NCBI GenBank assembly: GCA_947499755.1 | Contig: CANMPU010000015.1 | Span: 1-10,434, forward strand | Source: Betaproteobacteria bacterium | GTDB taxonomy: Bacteria > Pseudomonadota > Gammaproteobacteria > Burkholderiales > CANMPU01 | Length of the DNA stretch: 10,434 bases | Reading direction: 5' to 3' | Part shown: piece by piece, positions 1 through 10,434 of the stretch | Layout of the letters: each line of letters starts with the position of its first letter | Position numbering within the stretch: the stretch's first letter is position 1 | Notes under the pieces: model-generated | Database searches by the model: none | What the model saw: only the letters and a program-made list of their open reading frames with translations | What the model was told of the DNA's origin: nothing | Translations under genes and position numbers: made by a program

Positions 1-822
1 ATAGTAAGCTTAGATAATGGCCTCATCTTCGAACGAGATATGGCGATCGGAACCACAAAATTTATTCAAACGCTAGAACCGCGCGTCTATTATCTGTATG
101 CGCCCTTTAGAGACCAAAACAAAATTCCCAATTTCGACAGCACCGTTGCCGATATTAATTTCGCGCAGATTTATTCGGAAAATCTATTCAGCGGAAGCGA
201 TCGCGTCAATGATGCAAATCAGGTAACCGTTGGTATCGGTTCACGAATAATCGATCCCGATTCTGGTGTCCAACAATTTGCGGCAAGCATTGCGCAGCGT
301 TATCACTTCAAGACGCAGGAAGTAGCGCTCCCTGGGGTTCCTCTGCGCGACAGCGCGACCTCCTCGCTCTTGGCGGCGGTAGGCGGCACCATCGCGGAAC
401 ATTGGGTTGCCGAGGCGGGCCTACAGTACAACACGGACTTTTCGCAAACACAAAAGCTAAGCCTAAGCGCGCGCTACAATCCGCAACGGGGGAAAGTGCT
501 TAATTTGGGTTACCGGTTTACGCAGGACCAAATCAAACAAGTCGATCTCTCCGCGCAATGGCCTTTGAGCGCAAATTGGAGTGGGCTAGCGCGCTGGAAC
601 TATTCTGTTCGTGACAACCAGATAATCGATGGCGTTGCTGGACTTGAATATCATACCTGCTGTTGGGCGGTGCGTTTAGTCGCGCATCGCTTGGCGACAA
701 CCGCAGCCGAAGTTGTCGATTCATTTTTTATCCAACTGGAATTGAACGGTGTCTCCAAAGTCGGCTCCAACCCCCTGGAAACTCTCAGACAAAATATTCC
801 GGGTTATACTAAGTTAAATTAA
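1..822 (+). CDS. lptD: LPS-assembly outer-membrane protein LptD, C-terminal part (5' end outside window)
   Basis: LptD is the outer-membrane beta-barrel that, with the lipoprotein LptE, inserts lipopolysaccharide into the outer leaflet. The reading frame is open from base 1, so only the last 273 codons are present: the C-terminal half of the barrel, with alternating short beta strands such as LEPRVYYLYAP near the start. The C-terminal motif YHTCCWAVRL contains the adjacent cysteine pair that, in E. coli LptD (Cys724/725), forms the disulfides with N-terminal cysteines needed for a working barrel. The partner cysteines would lie outside the window. surA follows after 31 bases, the usual order, and SurA is itself the chaperone for LptD. 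The ATG at base 40 is internal and not a start. Identification rests on the CC motif, barrel character and gene order. Confidence 0.95.
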   Translation: MVSLDNGLIFERDMAIGTTKFIQTLEPRVYYLYAPFRDQNKIPNFDSTVADINFAQIYSENLFSGSDRVNDANQVTVGIGSRIIDPDSGVQQFAASIAQRYHFKTQEVALPGVPLRDSATSSLLAAVGGTIAEHWVAEAGLQYNTDFSQTQKLSLSARYNPQRGKVLNLGYRFTQDQIKQVDLSAQWPLSANWSGLARWNYSVRDNQIIDGVAGLEYHTCCWAVRLVAHRLATTAAEVVDSFFIQLELNGVSKVGSNPLETLRQNIPGYTKLN

Positions 823-853
823 CCGCTGGCTTCTTAAAATCATTTTTATCCGT

Positions 854-2185
854 ATGAAAAAACCATTGCGTTTGGCAGAATCGTGTGCTGTGTTATTTGT
901 AATAATTTTGAATGTTTGCGCCATCGGCGTTGCATTTTCTGCTGAAAAACATAGAAATGTCATCGTTGCCTTGGATCGCGTAGTGGCCGTGGTGAACAAT
1001 AGCGTCATTACCAGACTGGAACTTGACGAACATCTGCAGCTGGCGATTAATCAACTTACTAAGCAAGGCACGCCTATCCCACCACAAAAAGTTCTCGAAA
1101 AGCAATTGCTAGAGCGCCTGATTACGAATCGGGTTCAATTACAGTTTGCCGCAGAGACTGGATTACGCGTGGACGATGCGCAGCTTGAAAAAGCGCTAAG
1201 CCGAATCGCGCAAGACAACAACCTGAGCCTAGTACAATTTAGGACGACACTAGAAAAAGATGGTGTAAATTTTCCAAAGTTTCGCGAGGAAATTCGCGAC
1301 GAGATTATCATGGCGCGCTTACGCGAACGTGAAGTCGATAATAAAATTCTCGTCACGGAAGGAGAGGTTGAGAATTATCTCAAAACCCAAGAAACACAGG
1401 GAATTAAAGCGGACGAATACAGTCTCGCGCACATCTTAGTCCAAATTCCTGGGCGCGCGGGGCCTGATCAAATTAGAGCAGCGCAGACCAAGGCGGAGAA
1501 AGCACTAACACAGATAAAATCAGGCGTTGATTTCGGTCAAGTGTCTGCCAGCTTTTCTGACGCGGCCTATGCGTTAAAAGGCGGGGCTATCGGTTGGCGT
1601 AGTGCAGACAAAATACCAACGCTATTTTACGAGGCGATCAAAACACTCAAGGCTGGTGAGGTCAGTGCGATTCTGCGTAGCCCAAATGGTTTTCACATCA
1701 TAAAAGTGTTGGAGATGCGCGGCGAAGGTGCGCCCGTCATAGTCGTGCAAAATCATGTACGCCACATTTTGATCAAACCGAGTGAGGTGGTTTCCGAGTC
1801 TGAGGCGAAAAGCCATTTGTTACAGTTAAAAGATAGGCTAGACCACGGCATGGATTTCGCTGAGTTAGCCAAACAGCACTCACAAGACGCGAGTGCGAGT
1901 AAAGGGGGCGATCTCGGCTGGGTTTCTCCCGGAGACACTGTTTCTGAATTCGAGCAAACTATTAATGCACTTGTCCCCGGACAGATTAGCGACCCTGTAC
2001 AAACGCAATTTGGCTGGCATCTAATTCAATTGCTAGAACGACGCAACGAGGATATGTCGCAAGAGAAGCGACAATTCGAAGTAAGAACAGCCCTACGCGA
2101 ACGAAAATCGGGTGAAGCCTATCAGGAATGGGTGCGTCAGCTTAGAGACCAAGCGTATGTAGAGTATCGAGTTGAAGACGATTAA
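854..2185 (+). CDS. surA: Periplasmic chaperone / peptidyl-prolyl isomerase SurA
   Basis: SurA escorts unfolded outer-membrane proteins, LptD among them, across the periplasm. The 443-residue product has a signal peptide: basic MKKPLR, a hydrophobic stretch at about residues 11-28, and probable cleavage after AFSA near residue 30. An N-terminal chaperone domain follows (about 38-180; family-typical opening DRVVAVVNNSVITRLEL). Then come two parvulin domains, about 188-290 (AHILVQIP ... GGAIGWRS ... NGFHIIKV) and 298-397 (RHILIKPS ... GGDLGWVS ... FGWHLIQL), and a short C-terminal helix that packs on the chaperone domain. Length and architecture are normal for the family. The start is the only ATG that keeps a complete signal peptide, but there is no Shine-Dalgarno motif upstream. 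pdxA begins 14 bases after the stop, so the genes are probably co-transcribed with lptD. Confidence 0.97.
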   Translation: MKKPLRLAESCAVLFVIILNVCAIGVAFSAEKHRNVIVALDRVVAVVNNSVITRLELDEHLQLAINQLTKQGTPIPPQKVLEKQLLERLITNRVQLQFAAETGLRVDDAQLEKALSRIAQDNNLSLVQFRTTLEKDGVNFPKFREEIRDEIIMARLREREVDNKILVTEGEVENYLKTQETQGIKADEYSLAHILVQIPGRAGPDQIRAAQTKAEKALTQIKSGVDFGQVSASFSDAAYALKGGAIGWRSADKIPTLFYEAIKTLKAGEVSAILRSPNGFHIIKVLEMRGEGAPVIVVQNHVRHILIKPSEVVSESEAKSHLLQLKDRLDHGMDFAELAKQHSQDASASKGGDLGWVSPGDTVSEFEQTINALVPGQISDPVQTQFGWHLIQLLERRNEDMSQEKRQFEVRTALRERKSGEAYQEWVRQLRDQAYVEYRVEDD

Positions 2186-2199
2186 CCCACTAGCTGCGC

Positions 2200-3201
2200 A
2201 TGCAAGCTAAGCGCAAACCGCTCGTTGCGATTTCCTCCGGAGAACCTGCCGGTATTGGTCCTGATTTATGCGTACTACTAAGCCAAAAAATCTCCTGCGA
2301 GAATATTGTTGTTATAGGGGACAAAGGGGTTTTGGCCAAGCGCGCACAACTTCTCGGTATTAAGCTCGCTCTGGTCGATTTTGCGAGCGCGGTCGCGCGC
2401 GATCAAAAAGGTATGTTGCGTGTCCTGCATGTGGCGGCGCAACATCCTGTCGTTCCCGGTACCCTAGATAGGCGTAATAGCCCCTATGTACTTGCCCTAT
2501 TAGATGCGGCAGTAAATGCCTGCGTCAGCAGCATGGTTGACGCTATGGTTACCGCGCCGATACATAAAGCCATCCTTAGCGAGACCGGCTCCCCATTTAC
2601 TGGACACACGGAATACCTGGCGCAAGCGACCGGCAGGTCTCGCGTCGTGATGATGCTAGTTGGGGGGGGGTTACGTGTTGCCCTCGCAACCACGCATCTT
2701 GCGTTAAAAGATGTGCCAAGCGCGATTAACCCTACCATGTTGGAAAGCACGCTCCGCATAATACACACTGACTTAATCAATCGCTTCGGCATTCCCAATC
2801 CGAAGATTCTAGTGGCTGGGCTGAATCCACACGCGGGTGAATCTGGGCTCTTGGGAACAGAGGAGATAGAAACGATTGCCCCGGTGATCAAACAGCTGCA
2901 CCTAGCAGGTTTTGATATTCGCGGCCCAATGGCAGCAGATACGCTATTTACGCCCATGCGGCTAAAAGCGTGTGACTGTGTGCTCGCGATGTACCATGAT
3001 CAGGGGTTACCGGTGCTTAAATACGCCAGTTTTGGCGCGGGTGCAAACGTAACGCTGGGACTACCTATCATTCGCACTTCGGTTGATCACGGAATTGCGC
3101 TAGACCTCGCGGGTAGCGGAAAAATAGATTGTGGTAGTTTGATTGCCGCCACCGAACTTGCCTCCGAATTAGCGGAAAAACTTATGTCACGTGCTCTGTA
3201 A
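2200..3201 (+). CDS. pdxA: 4-hydroxythreonine-4-phosphate dehydrogenase
   Basis: PdxA oxidises 4-phosphohydroxy-L-threonine with NAD. The product decarboxylates to 3-amino-2-oxopropyl phosphate, which PdxJ condenses into pyridoxine 5'-phosphate. The cytoplasmic 333-residue protein shows the family motifs in order: SGEPAGIGPD (13-22), VTAPIHKA (117-124), TGHTEYLA (134-141), TTHLAL (164-169), GLNPHAGE (207-214), GPMAADTLF (242-250), MYHDQGLP (264-271) and RTSVDHGIALDLAGSG (292-307). The three metal-binding histidines fall at 166, 211 and 266, the same numbers as in E. coli PdxA, which supports both this start codon and full length. A run of nine G encodes Gly155-157. No Shine-Dalgarno sequence is visible. 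ksgA begins 11 bases after the stop, as in the conserved surA-pdxA-ksgA cluster, which favours true PdxA over the catabolic PdxA2-like paralogues. Confidence 0.97.
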   Translation: MQAKRKPLVAISSGEPAGIGPDLCVLLSQKISCENIVVIGDKGVLAKRAQLLGIKLALVDFASAVARDQKGMLRVLHVAAQHPVVPGTLDRRNSPYVLALLDAAVNACVSSMVDAMVTAPIHKAILSETGSPFTGHTEYLAQATGRSRVVMMLVGGGLRVALATTHLALKDVPSAINPTMLESTLRIIHTDLINRFGIPNPKILVAGLNPHAGESGLLGTEEIETIAPVIKQLHLAGFDIRGPMAADTLFTPMRLKACDCVLAMYHDQGLPVLKYASFGAGANVTLGLPIIRTSVDHGIALDLAGSGKIDCGSLIAATELASELAEKLMSRAL

Positions 3202-3212
3202 CGTCCATCAGT

Positions 3213-4019
3213 ATGCACCAGCCACGTAAACGTTTCGGCCAAAATTTTCTTCACGATGCGAATATTGTTTCTAAAATACTGCAAACATTAAACCCCAGAA
3301 GCGAAGATAGCCTTGTTGAAATAGGGCCAGGCCTAGGGGCATTAACGGCGCCTATTATTGCAATGGGATTTACCCTTCACGCTATAGAGATTGACCGTGA
3401 TGTCGTCGCGCAACTCAAGCAGGAATTTTTAGATGCCAACTTAGTTGTCCACAATTCAGATGCGCTAAGATTTGATTTTTCACGCCTTGGAAATCACCTG
3501 CGCGTTTTCGGTAATCTGCCTTACAATATTTCTACGCCGCTGTTGTTCCACTTAACAGATTTTGCGGAAAACCTAGTGGACTGTCATGTCATGCTACAAA
3601 AGGAGGTGGTCGATCGCATTGTCGCGAAACCGTCCACTCCCGAATATGGCCGTCTTTCGGTAATGTTGCAATTTCGTTTTAACGTGGAGCACCTTTTCGA
3701 CGTATCACCAAATTCGTTCTATCCGATTCCAAAAGTTACTTCGAGTTTTCTCCGACTAACGCCCCTACGAAACGTGGACTTGTCTGCGCGGCGATATGCC
3801 TTACTGTCGCAAATTGTGATGAGCGCTTTTGGTCAAAGGCGCAAAATGCTAAGGAACGCTCTATCTGGTCTCTTAGATAATGATGATTTCGCAGCGCTTG
3901 CGCTTGACCAGAAAGCACGCGCGGAAAACCTGTCCGTCAACCAATACGTCTCTATCGTCAACTATTTAGAACAAAATAAAAAATGCCAAAGTACGACAGA
4001 AACACAAGCGGGTCGGTAA
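3213..4019 (+). CDS. ksgA: 16S rRNA (adenine1518-N6/adenine1519-N6)-dimethyltransferase
   Basis: KsgA (RsmA) uses S-adenosylmethionine to dimethylate two adjacent adenines in the 3'-terminal helix 45 of 16S rRNA, a late checkpoint in 30S assembly. The 268-residue protein opens with RKRFGQNFLHD (5-15), the N-terminal signature. It then shows the SAM-binding motif VEIGPGLGAL (35-44), the acidic loop AIEIDRD (57-63), the catalytic FGNLPYNIS (99-107) and the C-terminal FYPIPKVTSSFLRL (169-182). The C-terminal helical domain is complete, followed by a short polar tail. It is the last gene of the lptD operon here; apaG and apaH, which follow it in E. coli, are absent. Its stop codon lies two bases from that of the convergent rubredoxin gene, with no terminator between. 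No Shine-Dalgarno motif precedes the ATG. Confidence 0.97.
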   Translation: MHQPRKRFGQNFLHDANIVSKILQTLNPRSEDSLVEIGPGLGALTAPIIAMGFTLHAIEIDRDVVAQLKQEFLDANLVVHNSDALRFDFSRLGNHLRVFGNLPYNISTPLLFHLTDFAENLVDCHVMLQKEVVDRIVAKPSTPEYGRLSVMLQFRFNVEHLFDVSPNSFYPIPKVTSSFLRLTPLRNVDLSARRYALLSQIVMSAFGQRRKMLRNALSGLLDNDDFAALALDQKARAENLSVNQYVSIVNYLEQNKKCQSTTETQAGR

Positions 4020-4021
4020 AA

Positions 4022-4207
4022 CTATATCGCTATCATTTCAAAGTCTTCTTTGCGCGCGCCGCAGTCGGGGCACGTCCAGTTTATAGGTAAGTCTTCCCAC
4101 CGCGTTCCAGGGGAAACGCCGTCATCAGGAAGCCCCGCCGCCTCATCATAGATAAAGCCACAGATAAGGCAAATATAGGTTCTTAATTCATTATTGTTCT
4201 GAGTCAT
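4022..4207 (-). CDS. Rubredoxin
   Basis: This small cytoplasmic electron carrier has a single iron atom held by four cysteines. The 61-residue protein has the two rubredoxin knuckles, CLICG (Cys13, Cys16) and CPDCG (Cys46, Cys49). The intervening GFIYDEAAGLPDDGV and the aromatic/PxxW region are typical of one-domain rubredoxins, with a short N-terminal extension of about seven residues. It is encoded opposite to its neighbours: convergent with ksgA and divergent from thiD (83-base gap). Its partner (an oxygenase, a peroxide or superoxide detoxifying enzyme, or a respiratory assembly role) cannot be told from the sequence. Placement next to thiD/thiE/hemL matches my knowledge of Nitrosomonadales genomes, but that is recollection. 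No Shine-Dalgarno motif is visible upstream of the ATG. Confidence 0.95.
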   Translation of the reverse strand: MTQNNNELRTYICLICGFIYDEAAGLPDDGVSPGTRWEDLPINWTCPDCGARKEDFEMIAI

Positions 4208-4290
4208 GGCACAATGCTAAACAGGCAAATATTTTATTGTAACTAAAACGTGGCCGCTGCCAAAAATATTTAACGTACATCGTATATTCC

Positions 4291-5112
4291 ATGTCAGACA
4301 AACCACCTTGCGTCCTAACATTTGCGGCGATCGACCCTAGCGGAGGGGCGGGGCTCCAAGCAGACATTCTCACACTAACTAGTATGGGGTGCCACGCGCT
4401 CCCAATAATAACTGCGCTTACCATTCAAGACACGCGAGGCGTCGAAGCGCTGCAAGCCATAGACGCGGACTGGGTTTCAGACCAAGCGCGCCACATACTC
4501 GAAGATATCCCGATAGCAGCGTTCAAACTAGGGCTATTAGGTAGTGTAGCAATAATTGCATCCATTGCAGAAATTATTTCCGACTACCCAGAGATTCCGG
4601 TTGTATTTGACCCAGTACTGGCATCGGGGCGAGGAGACGAATTGACCACGGAAAATATGGTCGTAGCAATGCGGGAGTTAATCATTCCAAGGTCTACAAT
4701 TTTAACGCCCAATAGCATAGAAGCACGCCGGCTAGCGATTGGCGAATACGATGAGCAGGACGATCCGAATCTAAACGTTTGCGCAAACCGTTTGCTCGGG
4801 TTAGGTTGTGACTATGTTCTTATCACTGGCACCCACATCAATACTCCCCAAGTGACCAATACACTTTATGGAAAGAACGGCGTGGTGCGCTCAGATACCT
4901 GGGAACGTCTACCAGGCAGTTATCACGGCTCTGGTTGTACGCTTGCGTCCGCGATTGCGGCCTCGATAGCAAGCGGGCTTGGTGTGTCAGAGGCGGTTAA
5001 AGAAGCGGAACAATATACCTGGCATACCTTAAGTAGCGCATATCGTCCCGGGATGGGCCAATTCATACCGGATCGACTATTTTGGGCACGCGAAGCCGGT
5101 GAAGAAACTTAG
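4291..5112 (+). CDS. thiD: Hydroxymethylpyrimidine / phosphomethylpyrimidine kinase
   Basis: ThiD phosphorylates 4-amino-5-hydroxymethyl-2-methylpyrimidine twice, giving the pyrimidine diphosphate that ThiE couples to the thiazole in thiamine synthesis. The 273-residue protein is a ribokinase-fold enzyme. It shows DPSGGAG (15-21), ALTIQDTRG (42-50), KLGLLGS (79-85), FDPVLASGRG (106-115), LTPN (138-141), LITGTH (177-182) and the anion-hole motif HGSGCTLASA (212-221), whose Cys is a known family residue. Length is normal. thiE lies 45 bases downstream on the same strand and hemL follows, forming a thiD-thiE-hemL unit. The 83-base region shared with the divergent rubredoxin gene shows no convincing promoter pair, and there is no Shine-Dalgarno motif before the ATG. 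A pyridoxal kinase is a related alternative, but the context and HGSGCT region favour ThiD. Confidence 0.95.
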   Translation: MSDKPPCVLTFAAIDPSGGAGLQADILTLTSMGCHALPIITALTIQDTRGVEALQAIDADWVSDQARHILEDIPIAAFKLGLLGSVAIIASIAEIISDYPEIPVVFDPVLASGRGDELTTENMVVAMRELIIPRSTILTPNSIEARRLAIGEYDEQDDPNLNVCANRLLGLGCDYVLITGTHINTPQVTNTLYGKNGVVRSDTWERLPGSYHGSGCTLASAIAASIASGLGVSEAVKEAEQYTWHTLSSAYRPGMGQFIPDRLFWAREAGEET

Positions 5113-5157
5113 TGTTGGCGGCCGTTAAGATACGACAATCTCCCACTCCACAACGAC

Positions 5158-5817
5158 ATGTTTACGATAGATAGAATAAAAGGACTGTATGCAATAACGC
5201 CGGATATCGCTGATACCGTCCTACTGCTTAGTTATGTACGGCTCGCCCTTGAAGGTGGCGCCAGCGCTATTCAATACCGAAATAAAACGGCCAATGCATC
5301 GCTTAAAAAAGAACAAGCGCCAGCGCTGCTGCAACTGTGTCGACAATATAGTGCGTGGTTGATTATTAACGACGACGTCATTTTAGCGAATCTCATTGAC
5401 GCTAGCGGTGTACATCTTGGCAAAAACGATTGCTCAATTGAAGCAGCGCGAGCCCAGCTTGGGCCAAAGAAAATAATTGGGCTGTCTTGTTATGCACAAC
5501 TGAATACCGCGCACAACGCGCAGCAACGAGGAGCGAACTACGTCGCGTTTGGCAGCGTATACCCGTCGCCTACTAAACCACTGGCGAGCCGTGCGCCACT
5601 TGCGTTGTTCAGTGAGGCAAAACAAACCTTGCAAATCTCCCTGGTCGCAATCGGCGGCATTACAACCAACAATGTGTCTGCTCTAATCCAGGCCGGGGCA
5701 GATGCGGTTGCGGTGTCGTCCGGTTTGTTTAACGTGCCAGATATAAAAGATGCCGCTATTCGTATTAATAAAATAATTGCGTTAAACAGTCATGTCGAGC
5801 AATCAACAACTATTTGA
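5158..5817 (+). CDS. thiE: Thiamine-phosphate synthase
   Basis: ThiE joins hydroxymethylpyrimidine diphosphate, the product of the upstream ThiD, to the thiazole phosphate carboxylate to give thiamine monophosphate. The 219-residue TIM-barrel protein has GLYAITPD (9-16), AIQYRNK (37-43, the VQLRxK equivalent), IINDDVILA (69-77), GVHLGKND (84-91), [10 protein letters not shown] (131-140, equivalent to GPIFPTxTK), [10 protein letters not shown] (163-172) and the C-terminal phosphate loop VAVSSGLF (184-191). The variants Tyr40 and Val134 differ from E. coli but leave the pyrophosphate-binding Arg, Asn and Lys in place. The last 26 bases overlap the start of hemL in another frame, suggesting coupled translation. 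No Shine-Dalgarno motif is visible. The alternative TenI role (thiazole tautomerase) is less likely next to thiD and with the intact PSPTK loop. Confidence 0.94.
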
Positions 5818-7075
5818 ACAATCCAAACGCGTAATCCCCGGCGGGGTAAATTCTCCGGTGCGTGCATTTCATGCCGTTGGCGGTACACCAAGATTTATTG
5901 ATCGTGCGAGAGGCGCCCATATTTGGGATAGTGAGAACAAAAAGTATATCGATTACGTTTGTTCCTGGGGGCCATTGATTTTGGGACATACCCACCCTGA
6001 GGTTATTGCCGCCATAGAAGGCGCTCTACAAAATGGCGTAAGTTTTGGTGCGCCGACGCGTCTCGAATTGGAGATGGCACACACTTTATGCTCTCTTCTG
6101 CCCTCGATGGAGCAAGTGCGACTGGTTAGCTCCGGGACTGAAGCAACAATGAGCGCGCTGCGATTAGCGCGGGGGTTTACCGGACGCGACAAGATTATCA
6201 AGTTTGAAGGTTGTTATCATGGTCACGCCGACGCACTTCTGGTAAAGGCAGGCTCTGGCGCGCTTACCCTGGGTCAGCCTAGTTCGGCGGGCGTGCCCGT
6301 CGGCGCCTCGCAAGATACTCTCGTGCTTGATTACAACAATATCGCACAAATTGACGCGACCTTTCTAACCTACGGCGACCATATCGCAGCAGTAATCGTA
6401 GAGCCGATCGCCGGGAATATGAATCTGATATTGCCGGCTATGGAATTCTTACAAACGCTAAGAGAGCGCTGTACCCAGTATGGCGCGGTATTGATCTTTG
6501 ACGAAGTCATGACCGGGTTTCGTGTTGGCTTGAAAGGTGCACAGGGGCTATTCGATATCGCCCCTGATCTCACGACCTTAGGTAAAATTGTCGGTGGCGG
6601 ATTGCCACTTGCGGCGTTTGGCGGGCGCGCAGAAATCATGCAACGGTTAGCGCCTTGCGGTCCAGTTTATCAAGCAGGAACTTTATCGGGGAATCCAATA
6701 GCGGTTAGTGCGGGTCTTGCTACGCTTAGACTCATTCAGGCTCCCGGTTTTTACGATCGACTCGCAACGACAACCCGACGCTTAATCGAGGGGCTATGCG
6801 AAGCAGCGGACAAACACTACGTCGCTTTTTCTGCGCAGGCCGTTGGGGCGCTGTTTGGATTTTATTTCCGCAAGGAAATCCCGCAGGACTTCGCTCAGGG
6901 GATGACCTGCAACCGACAAGATTTCAACCAATTTTTTCACTTCATGCTCGAGCGCGGTATTTATTTCGCCCCGTCCGCCTTTGAAGCAGGGTTTGTGTCC
7001 TCAGCGCACGGGACAAAAGAGATAGAGGAAACGCTTCTCGCAGCGGACGAGGCCTTTGCGTATCTGGCTCGTTAG
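5792..7075 (+). CDS. hemL: Glutamate-1-semialdehyde 2,1-aminomutase
   Basis: HemL is a PLP enzyme that moves the amino group of glutamate-1-semialdehyde to give 5-aminolevulinate, the last step of the C5 route into tetrapyrroles. The 427-residue, full-length class-III aminotransferase-fold protein begins [20 protein letters not shown], a near-canonical HemL N-terminus that fixes the start inside thiE. Further motifs are [16 protein letters not shown] (112-127), CYHGHAD (141-147), VEPIAGN (203-209), [10 protein letters not shown] (235-244) and the PLP-lysine motif [12 protein letters not shown] with Lys265, the same number as in E. coli. The product feeds HemB, encoded about 1.7 kb downstream. 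It is the last gene of the thiD-thiE-hemL unit and converges on the cytochrome c4 gene with a 15-base gap and no terminator. Confidence 0.97.
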
Positions 7076-7090
7076 ACGAAGTCGTCGATA

Positions 7091-7726
7091 CTATTTCATG
7101 GCAGCAATATATTCTGCGACAGCTTCGAGCTCTTTGTCTGTCATGCGAGATGCGATTGTACGCATCTTTTTATTCACATCGTTTGCGCGCTCGCCAGAGC
7201 GAAATGCTTTGAGTTGGGCAAGCGTATACGCAGTATGCTGACCCGCGAGCCTTGGGTATTGCGCTGGTATCCCCGCGCCGTTCGGTGAGTGGCACGAACT
7301 GCAAGCGGGTATGCCCGTTTGCGCAATCCCTCCACGATAAATTTTCTTGCCTTTCAATACCAATTCTTTATTCGTTGCCATTCCAGGTGCGGGCTTCTGG
7401 CTAGAAAAATATGCTGCCAAATTCTTCATGTCACTTTCTGATAGACTCGCAACCATTGCTGCCATAACCGGATTGTTTCTTATTTCTTCCGGTTTTTTTG
7501 TTCCAGAGCTCGCAAAATTGTGCAATTGCTTAAGAATATATTCAGCGTGTTGCCCGGCGATCTTCGGGTTTGCCAGGAGCGTACTGTTACCATCAGCGCC
7601 ATGACACGCGGCGCACACCTGATTAGCTATTATTTTTGCGGCTGCAGGATCGGGGGTATTGTATGCGTTCGCAAAACCGGTAAGTATAAAAACTATCAGA
7701 CCCAAACAATTTACCAAGTGTTTCAT
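7091..7726 (-). CDS. Dihaem cytochrome c4
   Basis: A periplasmic dihaem electron carrier, in related bacteria an electron donor to terminal oxidases. The 211-residue precursor has a signal peptide (hydrophobic 8-19, probable cleavage after ANA at residue 21). Two homologous cytochrome domains follow, each with a CxxCH haem site: CAACH (38-42) and CSSCH (142-146). Each is followed by the c4 signature PKIAGQH / PRLAGQH. Candidate axial methionines are Met88/Met91 in the first domain and Met188/Met195 in the second. Repeated halves and length fit cytochrome c4 rather than c5 or c554. This is one of only two genes here with a clear Shine-Dalgarno sequence (GAGGG, six bases before ATG). It is divergent from engB, an arrangement also seen in Pseudomonas, and converges on hemL. 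Confidence 0.95.
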   Translation of the reverse strand: MKHLVNCLGLIVFILTGFANAYNTPDPAAAKIIANQVCAACHGADGNSTLLANPKIAGQHAEYILKQLHNFASSGTKKPEEIRNNPVMAAMVASLSESDMKNLAAYFSSQKPAPGMATNKELVLKGKKIYRGGIAQTGIPACSSCHSPNGAGIPAQYPRLAGQHTAYTLAQLKAFRSGERANDVNKKMRTIASRMTDKELEAVAEYIAAMK

Positions 7727-7732
7727 CTAAGG

Positions 7733-7737
7733 CCCTC
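7733..7737 (-). promoter_or_regulatory. Ribosome binding site of cytochrome c4
   Basis: GAGGG on the minus strand, six bases upstream of the ATG. It is noted because most other genes in the window have no such motif. Confidence 0.7.
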
Positions 7738-7797
7738 AAATTAGTCGTTCTTAGAAGTGTTTTTAAACCATGCGCATAAGCTAAACATACGATTTCG

Positions 7798-7825
7798 TTG
7801 CATAATCACAGAGTTTGCCTATTCT
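7798..7825 (+). promoter_or_regulatory. Possible sigma-70 promoter of engB
   Basis: TTGCAT (7798-7803) and TATTCT (7820-7825) are separated by 16 bases, each matching four of six consensus positions. It would start RNA near 7832. That leaves only about 8 bases before the ATG at 7840 but about 32 before the ATG at 7864, which mildly favours the later start. Inference from the sequence only. Confidence 0.35.
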
Positions 7826-7863
7826 ATCGCAGTTAAGCGATGCGGTGCCAGCCATCTTTAATC

Positions 7864-8463
7864 ATGGATAAATCACTATTTAAAAACACAACTTTTTTCA
7901 CGACAGTTGATCGATTGCAAGATCTTCCTAATTATCACTGCCGCGAGGTCGCCTTCGCAGGGCGCTCCAATGTCGGTAAGTCTAGCGCGATTAATAAAAT
8001 TACAAATCAGTCGCGACTCGCCTATGCCAGTAAGACGCCCGGACGAACTCGCCATATGAATTATTTTCAACTCGCACCTCAGCGCTACCTGGTTGATCTA
8101 CCTGGCTACGGTTACGCCAGGGTGCCCGAAAATATTCGCCGACATTGGGAAGAATTGGTCAGCGAGTTTCTCGAAACGCGAGAATCTTTGAGTGGACTGA
8201 TCGTGTTAATGGATATCCGTCACCCATTGACCAAACTAGATTTACAATTACTCGATTGGTTTAGAATAACGGGAAAACCGGCCCACATATTGCTCACGAA
8301 ATCCGACAAGCTCACTAACGAGCGCGCGAGAAAAACGCTGGTTTCTGTTAAGAATGCAATCGTTGATCTATATCCGACGTATGATATTCAGCTGTTTTCT
8401 AGCGAGACCTCTGCAGGTGTTGATCAAGCACGTAGCGTTATTTCGGATTGGTTAGGCGTGTAG
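7864..8463 (+). CDS. engB: Ribosome biogenesis GTP-binding protein EngB (YihA/YsxC)
   Basis: An essential Era/TrmE-class GTPase that helps assemble the large ribosomal subunit. From the ATG at 7864 the protein has 199 residues. It shows the G1 P-loop GRSNVGKS (33-40), the switch region SKTPGRT (56-62), G3 DLPGYG (78-83), G4 TKSD (145-148) and a G5 serine pair in FSSETSAG (178-185). It is a single GTPase domain of normal length. An in-frame ATG at 7840 would add eight residues (MRCQPSLI). I prefer 7864 because family members usually begin a few residues before the LFKNTTFFTT-like segment, but neither start has a Shine-Dalgarno sequence. The gene is divergent from cytochrome c4. Its 3' end faces a predicted sRNA on the opposite strand. 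Confidence 0.95.
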   Translation: MDKSLFKNTTFFTTVDRLQDLPNYHCREVAFAGRSNVGKSSAINKITNQSRLAYASKTPGRTRHMNYFQLAPQRYLVDLPGYGYARVPENIRRHWEELVSEFLETRESLSGLIVLMDIRHPLTKLDLQLLDWFRITGKPAHILLTKSDKLTNERARKTLVSVKNAIVDLYPTYDIQLFSSETSAGVDQARSVISDWLGV

Positions 8464-8496
8464 GCGCACAAAATATTCAAGGTTATGAATTTTAGG

Positions 8497-8532
8497 AAAA
8501 AACCCCCGGTTCAGGGGGAATAAAACCGGGGG
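8497..8532 (-). terminator. Rho-independent terminator of the candidate sRNA
   Basis: On the minus strand a perfect 9-bp stem CCCCCGGTT/AACCGGGGG (8532-8524 with 8511-8503) and a 12-base loop are followed at once by six T (8502-8497). On the plus strand the stem is followed by CAAAAC, so it cannot act as an intrinsic terminator for engB. The direction therefore implies a minus-strand transcript starting within the engB-hemB gap. It is the only strong intrinsic terminator I can find in the window. Confidence 0.88.
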
Positions 8533-8603
8533 CAAAACAGCCTTAATGGTGATTAAGGCACCCGCTCGAGGAGGTGAAGCGGGGGACAATTGTGAAACCG
8601 TCC
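8497..8603 (-). ncRNA. Candidate trans-acting sRNA with anti-Shine-Dalgarno hairpin loops (Spot 42/ErsA-position)
   Basis: Seen on the minus strand, 5' to 3', are four adjacent hairpins. SL1 (8603-8584) has a weak 4-bp GGAC/GUCC stem with loop GGUUUCACAAUU. SL2 (8583-8561) has a 6-bp CCCGCU/AGCGGG stem with loop UCACCUCCUCG. SL3 (8559-8540) has a perfect 7-bp GCCUUAA/UUAAGGC stem with loop UCACCA. After the U-rich linker UGUUUUG comes SL4 (8532-8503), the terminator, with loop UUAUUCCCCCUG and a U6 tail. Predicted length is about 107 nt. The SL2 loop contains UCACCUCCU, the 16S rRNA anti-Shine-Dalgarno sequence, and the first three loops share UCAC. There is no open reading frame of note. The gene converges on engB as Spot 42 does in E. 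coli and ErsA in Pseudomonas. Base-pairing with ribosome binding sites, probably with Hfq, is inferred. Transcription is not shown. Confidence 0.7.
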
Positions 8604-8609
8604 ACTTAC

Positions 8610-8637
8610 TATGATAGCCGCAATTGCGATTAGTTCC
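8610..8637 (-). promoter_or_regulatory. Candidate sigma-E (RpoE/AlgU)-type promoter of the sRNA
   Basis: On the minus strand GGAACTA (8637-8631), 16 bases, then TCATA (8614-8610). The sigma-E consensus is GGAACTT, about 16 bases, TCnnA, so six of seven positions of the -35 and the TC..A of the -10 match at the usual spacing. The expected start is near 8603, at the first G of SL1. TATCAT (8616-8611) overlaps and resembles a sigma-70 -10 box, but no TTGACA-like -35 lies at the right distance. A palindrome GCAATTGC (8620-8627) sits inside the spacer. Confidence 0.5.
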
Positions 8638-8652
8638 GGCGAACTTTAATTT

Positions 8653-8668
8653 AAAAGCTTCGCTTTTT
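8653..8668 (+). terminator. Weak A/T-rich hairpin, possible engB terminator
   Basis: AAAAGC (8653-8658), loop TTC, GCTTTT (8662-8667), then T and an A/T-rich stretch. The stem is mostly A-T, so termination would be inefficient. Read on the minus strand, the core becomes GCGAAGC, an unusually stable mini-hairpin. It may simply be part of the A/T-rich upstream region of hemB. Confidence 0.2.
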
Positions 8669-8707
8669 ATATTATAAAAATTGATTTCGAAAAATATTAT
8701 TACACTG

Positions 8708-8736
8708 TTTTATATAGATAATATGCCCCCTATAAT
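8708..8736 (+). promoter_or_regulatory. Possible sigma-70 promoter of hemB
   Basis: A perfect -10 hexamer TATAAT (8731-8736) lies 17 bases after a poor -35 candidate TTTTAT (8708-8713). RNA would start near 8743, giving a leader of about 24 bases. The upstream 8640-8720 stretch is strongly A/T-rich and could compensate for the weak -35 or hold an activator site. The promoter is back-to-back with that of the predicted sRNA. Confidence 0.45.
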
Positions 8737-8751
8737 TCAATCAAGAGCCCC

Positions 8752-8756
8752 AAGGA
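8752..8756 (+). promoter_or_regulatory. Ribosome binding site of hemB
   Basis: AAGGA ending ten bases before the ATG; a clear Shine-Dalgarno match and one of only two in the window. Confidence 0.6.
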
Positions 8757-8766
8757 CGGCGAGATA

Positions 8767-9768
8767 ATGAGAGCCTTAGGCAGATTTCCCACAACCAGAA
8801 TGCGCCGACTGCGCAGAACTGAATTCTTGCGGCGCATCGTTTGTGAGACCTCGCTGCACGCGAACGATTTGATCGTTCCGGTATTCGTTCAAGAGGGGAA
8901 AAATCTCGTGACGCCTGTCGTATCGATGCCGGGTGTTAACCGTCATTCGATAGATGCCCTTTTGCCGATAGCCCAGAGATGCTTAGACCTCGGCATCGCA
9001 GCGATCGCGATCTTTCCTGTGGTGGAACCCTCTTTAAAAACCGCAGATGCAAAAGAAGCGCTCAATCCCTCGGGTTTGTTGCCTAAAGTCGTACGCGAAC
9101 TAAAAAAGCGCTTTCCTGAGTTGTGCGTTATTACCGATGTTGCTCTTGATCCCTACACTAGCCATGGACAGGATGGTGTCGTCGATCCCGCTGGTTACGT
9201 ACTTAACGATAAAACAATAGAAATACTTGCTCAGCAGGCGCAAATTCAAGGCGAATCTGGCGCAGACATTGTTGCACCCTCGGATATGATGGACGGTCGT
9301 GTCGGGGCGATTCGAAAAAGGCTTGATGATTTTGGTTTACAAAATGTATGTATCCTCTCTTACGCCGCAAAATACGCCTCTAATTTCTACGGCCCATTTC
9401 GCGATGCGGTCGGATCAAAAGAAAATCTCGGCTCTTGCGCGAAGCACAGTTTTCAAATGGATATCGCGAATAGTAATGAAGCATTAAGAGAGGTGGCCAT
9501 GGACCTTGCGGAAGGTGCGGACATTGTCATGATCAAACCTGGGCTTCCTTATCTTGACGTGCTACGTCGTGTAAAAGAAGAGTTTGGAGCGCCAACTTTT
9601 GTTTACCAAGTAAGCGGGGAGTATTTAATGCTTAAGGCTGCGTGCTCTAATGGCTGGTTAGACGAACGCGCTTGTGTGCTTGAGACATTGATATCATTCA
9701 AGCGCGCAGGCGCTGATGCCATCATGACGTATTTCGCCTTAGAAGCGGCTGCGTGGTTAAAAAATTAG
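8767..9768 (+). CDS. hemB: Delta-aminolevulinic acid dehydratase (porphobilinogen synthase)
   Basis: HemB condenses two 5-aminolevulinate molecules, the HemL product, into porphobilinogen, the first pyrrole of the haem pathway. The 333-residue TIM-barrel protein has an N-terminal arm (1-35, RFPTTRMRRLRRTEFLRR) that serves octamer assembly. It also has the metal region DVALDPYTSHGQDG (124-137), APSDMMDGRVGAIR (170-183), Lys202 in SYAAKYASNFYGPFR, Lys257 in VMIKPGLPYLDV, and YQVSGEY (280-286). The two lysines form the Schiff bases with the substrates. The zinc-binding cysteine triad of the E. coli type (CFCEYTSHGHCG) is replaced by Ala/Asp, so this is the magnesium-dependent class, as in Pseudomonas. 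It is preceded by its own TATAAT and AAGGA. The last four bases overlap the convergent gene that follows. Confidence 0.97.
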   Translation: MRALGRFPTTRMRRLRRTEFLRRIVCETSLHANDLIVPVFVQEGKNLVTPVVSMPGVNRHSIDALLPIAQRCLDLGIAAIAIFPVVEPSLKTADAKEALNPSGLLPKVVRELKKRFPELCVITDVALDPYTSHGQDGVVDPAGYVLNDKTIEILAQQAQIQGESGADIVAPSDMMDGRVGAIRKRLDDFGLQNVCILSYAAKYASNFYGPFRDAVGSKENLGSCAKHSFQMDIANSNEALREVAMDLAEGADIVMIKPGLPYLDVLRRVKEEFGAPTFVYQVSGEYLMLKAACSNGWLDERACVLETLISFKRAGADAIMTYFALEAAAWLKN

Positions 9769-10382
9769 TCGCTATCCTCGTGCCTAAGTAGTAACGATTC
9801 GATTTGCGAAATGTTGGCCTTTTCTAACGGCTTGCCAGTCGGCGTTTGCCTTATTTTTTGACGTAAATCATTGTACGAAAACACGGAGAGGGTAAAGCTA
9901 AAACCCTCGACTTCCAGTATAAATGTTGGGGCGGCGCGTATTTCTCCTCCGATAAACATCCTCGTCTCACGCGCCTCGTAGTTCGCGTTTTTGTTCAGCA
10001 AAAATATTTCAACATCCTTCTCGCTTTCAGGAAAAAGCTGAATATGGATGGTGGACTGCGCTTCGGCGTAGCCTGCTAACACGGATCCGGTTAAATGCGG
10101 ATGGAATTCTTTGAGCACGCGCATTAAATTTAACGCCTGCGTCCGAAGCTGATGAATTAAATCATCGTGCTCAGAGTCTTGAAATAAGCGCTGATGTTGT
10201 CGCAGCGCTTCTTCAATTTCAATATTATCAGGCAGATTACGTGTGTCTTCGGCACCCGCCATACGCGCGGCTTTGCGCTTTGCGCTCGCAAAGTCTGTAA
10301 CACCGTCCTCAGCCATAATTTTCGCAGCAAAGTGGGCAATACGCTCTCGAGCGTGCCGCCCTTTTAAATTGTTCTTTGGCAT
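9765..10382 (-). CDS. Conserved hypothetical protein with degenerate nucleotidyltransferase-like core
   Basis: I do not recognise a named function for this 205-residue soluble protein. The N-terminal part (1-70) is helical and rich in Arg/Ala/Glu, with RERIAHFAAKIMAEDG (12-27) and SAKRKAARMAG (33-43). From about residue 88 a segment resembles a minimal nucleotidyltransferase. Gly99-Ser100 are followed by Gly104 and by STIHIQLF (110-117), lining up with the GSxxxGxxxxxSDhD motif. The two catalytic aspartates are replaced by Thr111 and His113. KDVEIFLLN (122-130) could be the next strand. There is no signal peptide or membrane segment. It follows another minus-strand gene by two bases, so it is probably downstream in an operon, and its 3' end overlaps that of hemB by four bases. 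Homologues are, as I recall, often mislabelled as a muramate-alanine ligase, which the sequence does not support. Confidence 0.8.
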   Translation of the reverse strand: MPKNNLKGRHARERIAHFAAKIMAEDGVTDFASAKRKAARMAGAEDTRNLPDNIEIEEALRQHQRLFQDSEHDDLIHQLRTQALNLMRVLKEFHPHLTGSVLAGYAEAQSTIHIQLFPESEKDVEIFLLNKNANYEARETRMFIGGEIRAAPTFILEVEGFSFTLSVFSYNDLRQKIRQTPTGKPLEKANISQIESLLLRHEDSD

Positions 10383-10384
10383 TG

Positions 10385-10434
10385 TTAAAGAATCTGGTCT
10401 TTGATTTTATCGATCGCCTCTGCGGCGTCGGTAC
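10385..10434 (-). CDS. C-terminal end of an unidentified protein (5' part outside window)
   Basis: Minus-strand frame open from the window edge to TAA at 10387-10385, encoding ...TDAAEAIDKIKDQIL. The amphipathic helical character, the stop two bases before the ATG of the following gene, and normal codon use suggest the real 3' end of an upstream operon gene. A second minus-strand frame is also open over these 50 bases, so the choice is not certain. Too short to name. Confidence 0.4.
   Translation of the reverse strand, partial: TDAAEAIDKIKDQIL

Follow-up and report, generated by a model that had tools for sequence, protein, structure and literature searches.

The minus strand of the gap between engB and hemB in a Betaproteobacteria bacterium was found to encode a member of the anti-hemB small RNA (sRNA) family, Rfam RF02837, behind a putative promoter of the sigma-E (RpoE) type. 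The stretch of DNA analysed, hereafter the window, comprises 10,434 nt (contig CANMPU010000015.1 of assembly GCA_947499755.1, positions 1–10,434, forward strand). The family of the RNA, its conserved structure, the conserved form of its promoter and its locus were established by computation. The best explanation is a sigma-E-induced sRNA that acts in trans and blocks ribosome binding through its C-rich loops, and we assign this explanation a probability of about 0.7.

A covariance search with Rfam placed RF02837 over positions 8495–8586 of the window, with the full model (1–81) aligned and a score of 68.4 bits against a gathering cut-off of 49.5; it was the only Rfam family above threshold in the window. 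The preliminary description of this DNA had presented the gene as undescribed-looking, a claim that the match over the gathering score refutes. Among 60 genomes, counting the window's own, 44 had an RF02837 match over the cut-off, and three of the 14 control genomes, including E. coli, yielded weak sub-threshold matches. We analysed 45 of the 46 matches over the cut-off, leaving out a tandem copy in genome G032, and counted the weaker matches L045, L046, L048, L049 and L050 separately. In 33 of the 45 loci, the sRNA gene is transcribed away from hemB and towards engB.

The Burkholderia cenocepacia copy of anti-hemB is ncS04. In the available parts of the reports on it, ncS04 is 105 nt long with a mapped 3′ end, co-purifies with Hfq, and stays at a steady level across seven conditions by qPCR (PMC5688073, PMC4603805). 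It has the family score, the hairpins, the terminator and the engB–hemB locus in common with the window RNA. Anti-hemB is given as known in the available text of a 2012 paper (PMC3521395), while the accessible portion of a review lists Bc7, recovered by Hfq co-purification, with hemB as its predicted target and RybB as a suggested homologue (PMC6321483). Judging from the names, Bc7 is probably Rfam's "Burkholderia RNA 7". In the openly licensed literature searched, neither a function of the anti-hemB family nor a link to sigma-E was found, and the regulatory and evolutionary reading presented here has no precedent in the papers searched.

The gene occupies positions 8497–8603 on the minus strand, with a predicted transcript of about 107 nt whose putative 5′ end, near 8603, was placed by the promoter and the first hairpin. 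From 5′ to 3′, the RNA begins with a weak hairpin containing G-U pairs (GGACGGUU/AAUUGUCC, 8584–8603), which lies outside the Rfam model. This is followed by hairpin 1 (8561–8583), whose C-rich loop CACCUCCUC at 8576–8568 is complementary to Shine-Dalgarno sequences, by hairpin 2 (8540–8559), a perfect stem of 8 bp with the loop CACC, and by a U-rich linker (8533–8539). A GC-rich terminator hairpin with the C-rich loop UUCCCCCU, followed by six U, ends the RNA (8497–8532). The elements proposed in the preliminary description (the minus-strand terminator with its U6, the two hairpins upstream, the weak 5′ hairpin and the U-rich linker) were thus all found. Its broader picture was upheld as well, namely that a betaproteobacterial lineage carries here an sRNA gene of about 107 nt whose C-rich loops are complementary to Shine-Dalgarno sequences and whose build is like that of sX13. 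Its placement opposite the 3′ end of engB held in part. The minus-strand RNA does face engB (7840–8463, plus strand; TIGR03598, 224.1 bits), but it faces the 3′ flank in the engB–hemB gap and not the coding sequence, which stops at 8463. The RNA overlaps neither coding sequence, with 34 nt to the engB stop and 163 nt to the start of hemB (8767–9768, plus strand; porphobilinogen synthase, 484.8 bits). Beyond hemB, the minus strand holds a reading frame of 205 aa (9765–10382) for which neither NCBIfam nor Pfam gave a match at E ≤ 0.001.

The region 8490–8610 folds with −46.8 kcal/mol (z = −5.15), and none of 200 dinucleotide shuffles was equally stable. Conservation of the stems in relatives, put forward earlier as a check on the gene, was borne out when the window's locus was aligned with 44 others related to it (45 loci in all). 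Compensatory changes on both sides occurred in 27 of the 29 stem pairs, and 87.2% of cells were paired; sliding the partners by one column lowered pairing to about 50%. The covariation score was 0.312 against a shuffle mean of 0.162 and was matched by none of 500 shuffles, bearing in mind that kinship among the loci may push scores above those of shuffles. The 5′ hairpin, absent from the Rfam model, covaries too (both-side changes in 7/7 pairs, 73.0% of cells paired), and helices 2–4, that is, hairpins 1 and 2 and the terminator, have both-side changes in 20/22 pairs. In most relatives, loop 1 has the sequence UCCUCCCUGA, and it falls within the most conserved stretch of the alignment, as a pairing seed would. 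The window's own loop 1 differs from the RF02837 consensus, and the RNA contains UCACCUCCU, which we take to be the core of the 16S anti-Shine-Dalgarno sequence.

Upstream of the gene, on the minus strand, GGAACT at 8632–8637 is a putative −35 element of the sigma-E type, and TATCATA at 8610–8616 is a putative −10 element as in bepA promoters; both were assigned by motif and by the bepA matrix described below. Together they read GGAACT-N17-TCATA, and a two-part GGAACT/TC-type motif is the form of sigma-E promoters. Among the 45 loci, 29 have GGAACT between −45 and −53 relative to the start of the model (shuffle mean 1.26). The strict pattern GGAACT-N16-19-TCTNA lies upstream in 21 (shuffle mean 0.02) and was absent elsewhere in the 269 kb of the same loci, on both strands; a strict site was also present in one of the five weaker matches counted separately. 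With a looser score (at least 8 of 9 positions), 36 of the 45 related loci carry the site, and a sigma-70-like site (at least 9 of 12 positions) was found in one. As judged from its sequence, the promoter belongs to the sigma-E type and would depend on sigma-E. Neither this promoter type nor a tie to the sRNAs of the polA/engB locus figures in the preliminary description.

Of the rpoE genes examined in 29 loci of relatives, a single one has the strict pattern upstream (L199; the site in L203 is not upstream). Therefore, rpoE was dropped as a positive control and bepA, a gene of the sigma-E regulon in E. coli, was taken as an independent yardstick. The BepA-like gene of the window's own genome (best family BepA, 352.7 bits, under the model cut-off of 570) has both GGAACT, whose first base lies 33 nt upstream of the start codon, and TATCATA. 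Across 30 bepA loci, own included, GAACT-N16-19-TCNNA was found upstream in 18 (mononucleotide-shuffle mean 0.26) and GGAACT in 13. A matrix built from 13 bepA promoters scored the window's sRNA site at 23.44, level with the genome's own bepA, and none of 1919 control windows reached this value (maximum 13.93). When the own bepA was excluded, the site scored 22.65, and the next best site anywhere in the window scored 10.31. The −10 element of the bepA loci (L216–L245) is very uniformly TATCATA; most relatives' sRNA promoters have TCTNA, and the window's sRNA has the bepA form. RpoE itself is encoded in the genome (315.2 bits, cut-off 236.15), adjoined by RseA and RseB (RseA_N, 69.8 bits; MucB_RseB, 190.2 bits). 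Against the sigma-E reading count the rarity of strict sites upstream of rpoE, the bepA-matrix scores of the related loci, only 22 of 45 of which lie above the 99th percentile of controls, and the loose motif in the whole assembly, which shows no excess (15 matches, and 20 for the reversed pattern).

Promoters were then compared between lineages using hairpin-1 copies from named records, of which at least 120 were found and 119 classified, L103 having too little upstream sequence. The shares are no census, and the named genera were placed in families on our own assumption. Among the matches listed, a sigma-E-type site (at least 8/9) preceded 13/17 copies in Nitrosomonadales/Hydrogenophilales, 4/5 in Oxalobacteraceae, 15/25 in the Burkholderia group, mostly as the GAAACT variant, and 18/30 in unplaced MAGs. 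None of the 42 Comamonadaceae copies among the matches listed had such a site, which, like the GAAACT variant of the Burkholderia group, counts against the sigma-E reading; 24 of these 42 had sigma-70-like sites (at least 9/12), against 2.1 expected from shuffles. The window has an intact sigma-E-type promoter, whereas the B. cenocepacia copy (L182) showed no such site. The flat expression of ncS04, which counts against the sigma-E explanation, fits this copy, since a sigma-E-type site was not found there. One copy, L131, comes from a record titled as a Klebsiella pneumoniae MAG and carries a betaproteobacterial-type anti-hemB gene, probably through a wrong label or contamination.

Herein, we describe how the sRNA may act. 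Envelope damage would free RpoE, and the anti-hemB promoter would become active. The RNA of about 107 nt would then be made, ending at its own terminator, and its loops CACCUCCUC (hairpin 1) and UUCCCCCU (terminator hairpin) would pair with the ribosome-binding sites of other mRNAs. Hfq would probably assist the pairing, and translation of the targets would be lowered, in trans and not through antisense action on hemB. Hfq use is proposed because ncS04 co-purifies with Hfq; Hfq was not found in the assembly, which is 68% complete, and this may count against the explanation. Sigma-E dependence, Hfq use, Shine-Dalgarno pairing and repression are what we infer from these data, and the same holds for a block of translation start at several targets, which the preliminary description had supposed.

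Target prediction brought no class of genes to the fore. Predicted loop pairing did not favour porins, which were rejected as targets, a result that counts against the best explanation. Their 22 start regions had a mean best loop pairing of −7.40 kcal/mol, not significantly stronger than that of bepA (−7.19 kcal/mol, 26 regions; p = 0.36, 14 genomes) and weaker than that of rpoE (−10.78 kcal/mol, 26 regions; p = 0.005, 11 genomes). In a comparison with all 949 start regions (mean −8.35), 21 rpoE start regions averaged −10.98 and 4 of them fell in the lowest 5%, figures that are confounded by a stronger Shine-Dalgarno sequence, by pairing that may lie in coding sequence and by spurious reading frames in the background. 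Feedback of the sRNA loops on RpoE (L051 and relatives' rpoE loci) is possible, and we treat it as only a lead.

Next, we weighed the sigma-E explanation against other readings of the window RNA. TATCAT agrees with the sigma-70 −10 box TATAAT at five of six positions, and GGAACT/TATCATA could be incidental in a constitutive Hfq sRNA transcribed by the main sigma factor, a reading that the sigma-70-like Comamonadaceae copies and the steady ncS04 level favour. However, no sigma-70-like site was found on the minus strand upstream of the RNA, the related loci with such a site number one in 45, and GGAACT at its fixed distance is far above chance and common to bepA; we therefore regard constitutive expression as unlikely. 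The name of the family points to a cis-acting antisense RNA of hemB, or else of the engB mRNA. The RNA is indeed encoded between hemB and engB and on the strand opposite to theirs, an arrangement kept in the 33 related loci given above, and hemB is the predicted target of Bc7 in the accessible portion of the review (PMC6321483). This reading was nonetheless rejected and appears highly improbable: the RNA sits in the gap clear of both coding sequences, its neighbour in other orders is polA and not hemB, and loop pairing with the start regions is ordinary, with 3 of 33 for hemB and 0 of 34 for engB in the lowest 5%. Of these three hemB cases, at least two stem from wrongly placed starts that fall within the complement of the sRNA itself.

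The RNA might also mimic the anti-Shine-Dalgarno sequence in general and titrate mRNAs across the board, with no chosen targets, as the presence of UCACCUCCU, presumably the 16S anti-Shine-Dalgarno core, inside the window's loop would allow. A precedent lies in the betaproteobacterial RNAs of RF02278 (bdhR1, S17S), which, in the available parts of the sources, have a CU-rich loop complementary to ribosome-binding sites and are toxic to E. coli; for S17S, a reporter assay showed repression of a target. Unlike the window RNA, they have two hairpins and occupy other loci, and RF02278 scored 19.2 bits against the window, far under its cut-off of 50. Most relatives' loop 1 is nearly invariant beyond the Shine-Dalgarno complement, which points to selected pairing, and we consider a general mimic improbable.

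To place the sigma-E-type sRNA in a wider context, 274 genomes of the class (own included) were searched. RF02837 exceeded its cut-off in 14 of them, 12 outside the window's order, and matched at E ≤ 0.001 in 124. Three sets of 20 loci each were hand-picked, non-randomly, from the score list. In set A (34.3–58.7 bits; 11 loci over the cut-off), PolA or EngB adjoined the match in 16/20 loci, and a sigma-E-type site was present in 14/20 (shuffle expectation 0.26). In set B (32.4–45.4 bits, all below the cut-off), the corresponding counts were 19/20 and 16/20 (expectation 0.22), while in set C (27.1–30.9 bits, among the weakest listed) they were 2/20 and 1/20 (expectation 0.20). The neighbour and promoter counts of set B versus set C therefore show that most middling RF02837 matches are true relatives. 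In other orders, the genes usually run polA, sRNA and convergent engB, with a cytochrome c gene beyond that is often the same as the window's; the sRNA has the opposite orientation in the set B loci L269 and L282, and one PolA piece was confirmed with Pfam. In set C, L287 and L288 adjoin engB (L287 also polA), so that true members of RF02837 extend down to about 30 bits. In each of two genomes (L249, L251), a pair of matches is found within 2 kb of the tmRNA gene and not at engB or polA, perhaps as moved copies. Tandem copies of the sRNA were seen twofold in Nitrosospira briensis (L106), G206:C5, G165:C1 and G032:C12, and fourfold in G229:C33 and G321:C3, recalling the sibling sRNAs of Neisseria.

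When 16 of the 20 set B loci were compared with every Rfam model, further matches fell on the same stretch: sX13 in 6 (25.6–35.8 bits, E 0.004–0.93), ErsA in 3 (25.5–32.9 bits, E 0.014–0.9) and the alphaproteobacterial ar14 in 3 (30.2–40.5 bits, E 0.0005–0.095), all below cut-off; the unrelated models Scr3202 and PrrF matched once each at E > 0.5. ErsA of Pseudomonas (RF01719) resembles the window RNA in adjoining engB, in its sigma-E-type promoter and in the C-rich loop of its terminator, and its locus has polA where the window has hemB. In the available parts of the papers, ErsA sits in the polA–engB gap (PMC8575079), depends on sigma-22 by experiment (PMC7565897, PMC8395346) and, together with Hfq, represses algC at the ribosome-binding site, with OprD as a further target (PMC6321483). 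In the 15 best ErsA loci, PolA adjoined in 15, EngB in 13 and a sigma-E-type site was present in 15. In a further 16, made up of the 15 lowest-scoring primary matches and the match of G220, the counts were 12, 6 and 14. In the engB loci of G220 and G330, two genomes marked by PrrF, neither PolA nor an Rfam sRNA was found within the stretch, and in G220 ErsA adjoins polA elsewhere in the genome. RF01719 was not among the matches to window positions 8440–8780 with E up to 1, and RF02837 matched none of the 25 ErsA loci scanned of 31 fetched. Thus, the link to ErsA rests on locus, promoter and the set B intermediates.

According to the available text of its paper, sX13 of Xanthomonadaceae (RF02232) has three stem-loops with C-rich apical loops, always lies downstream of polA, in a locus that its authors likened to those of Spot 42 and ar7, and acts without Hfq (PMC3771888), whereas the window RNA would use it. 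RF02232 matched the window RNA over its full length but weakly, at 19.4 bits (cut-off 50). Spot 42 of E. coli (spf, RF00021) lies between polA and the convergent yihA (engB, also ysxC), the same chromosomal place as the engB-locus sRNAs. Its promoter is controlled by CRP, and it had no similarity to RF02837, sX13 or ErsA at E up to 5.

These comparisons raise the prospect of one ancient envelope-stress sRNA at the engB locus of Beta- and Gammaproteobacteria, ancestral to anti-hemB, ErsA, sX13, many unannotated RNAs and perhaps a far-diverged Spot 42. Control by sigma-E would be ancestral. In some lineages, above all the Comamonadaceae, a sigma-70-like promoter would have taken its place with the pairing loops retained, so that an RNA once made under stress would have come to serve a housekeeping role. 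We put this history at even odds. Independent origins of sRNAs at polA/engB, with the likeness due to convergence on C-rich loops, are a serious if somewhat doubtful alternative for the wider family. Spot 42 shares the locus with no detectable sequence in common, the scanned ErsA loci went unmatched by RF02837, and the cross-matches to sX13, ErsA and ar14 are all below cut-off, many with E near 1 and in the company of Scr3202 and PrrF. Against convergence, RF02837 itself picks up the polA/engB RNAs, with the sharp drop in neighbours from 32–45 bits to 27–31 bits, and these RNAs carry the same promoter type.

The sigma-E-type promoter gives the anti-hemB family a trigger and a direct test. MicA, RybB and MicL form the sRNA arm of the enterobacterial sigma-E response and are likened to the window RNA by their sigma-E role alone. 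If the sigma-E explanation is true, the window RNA would be the counterpart in Betaproteobacteria of these enterobacterial sRNAs and of ErsA. The authors of sX13 raised the question, in the available part of their paper, of sRNAs encoded at the polA locus of other bacteria (PMC3771888); among the 40 stronger and middling matches examined (sets A and B), 35 lie at polA or engB, which answers it for these. In conclusion, the findings would suggest joining separate Rfam families, lowering the cut-off of RF02837 and dating the promoter change on the tree.
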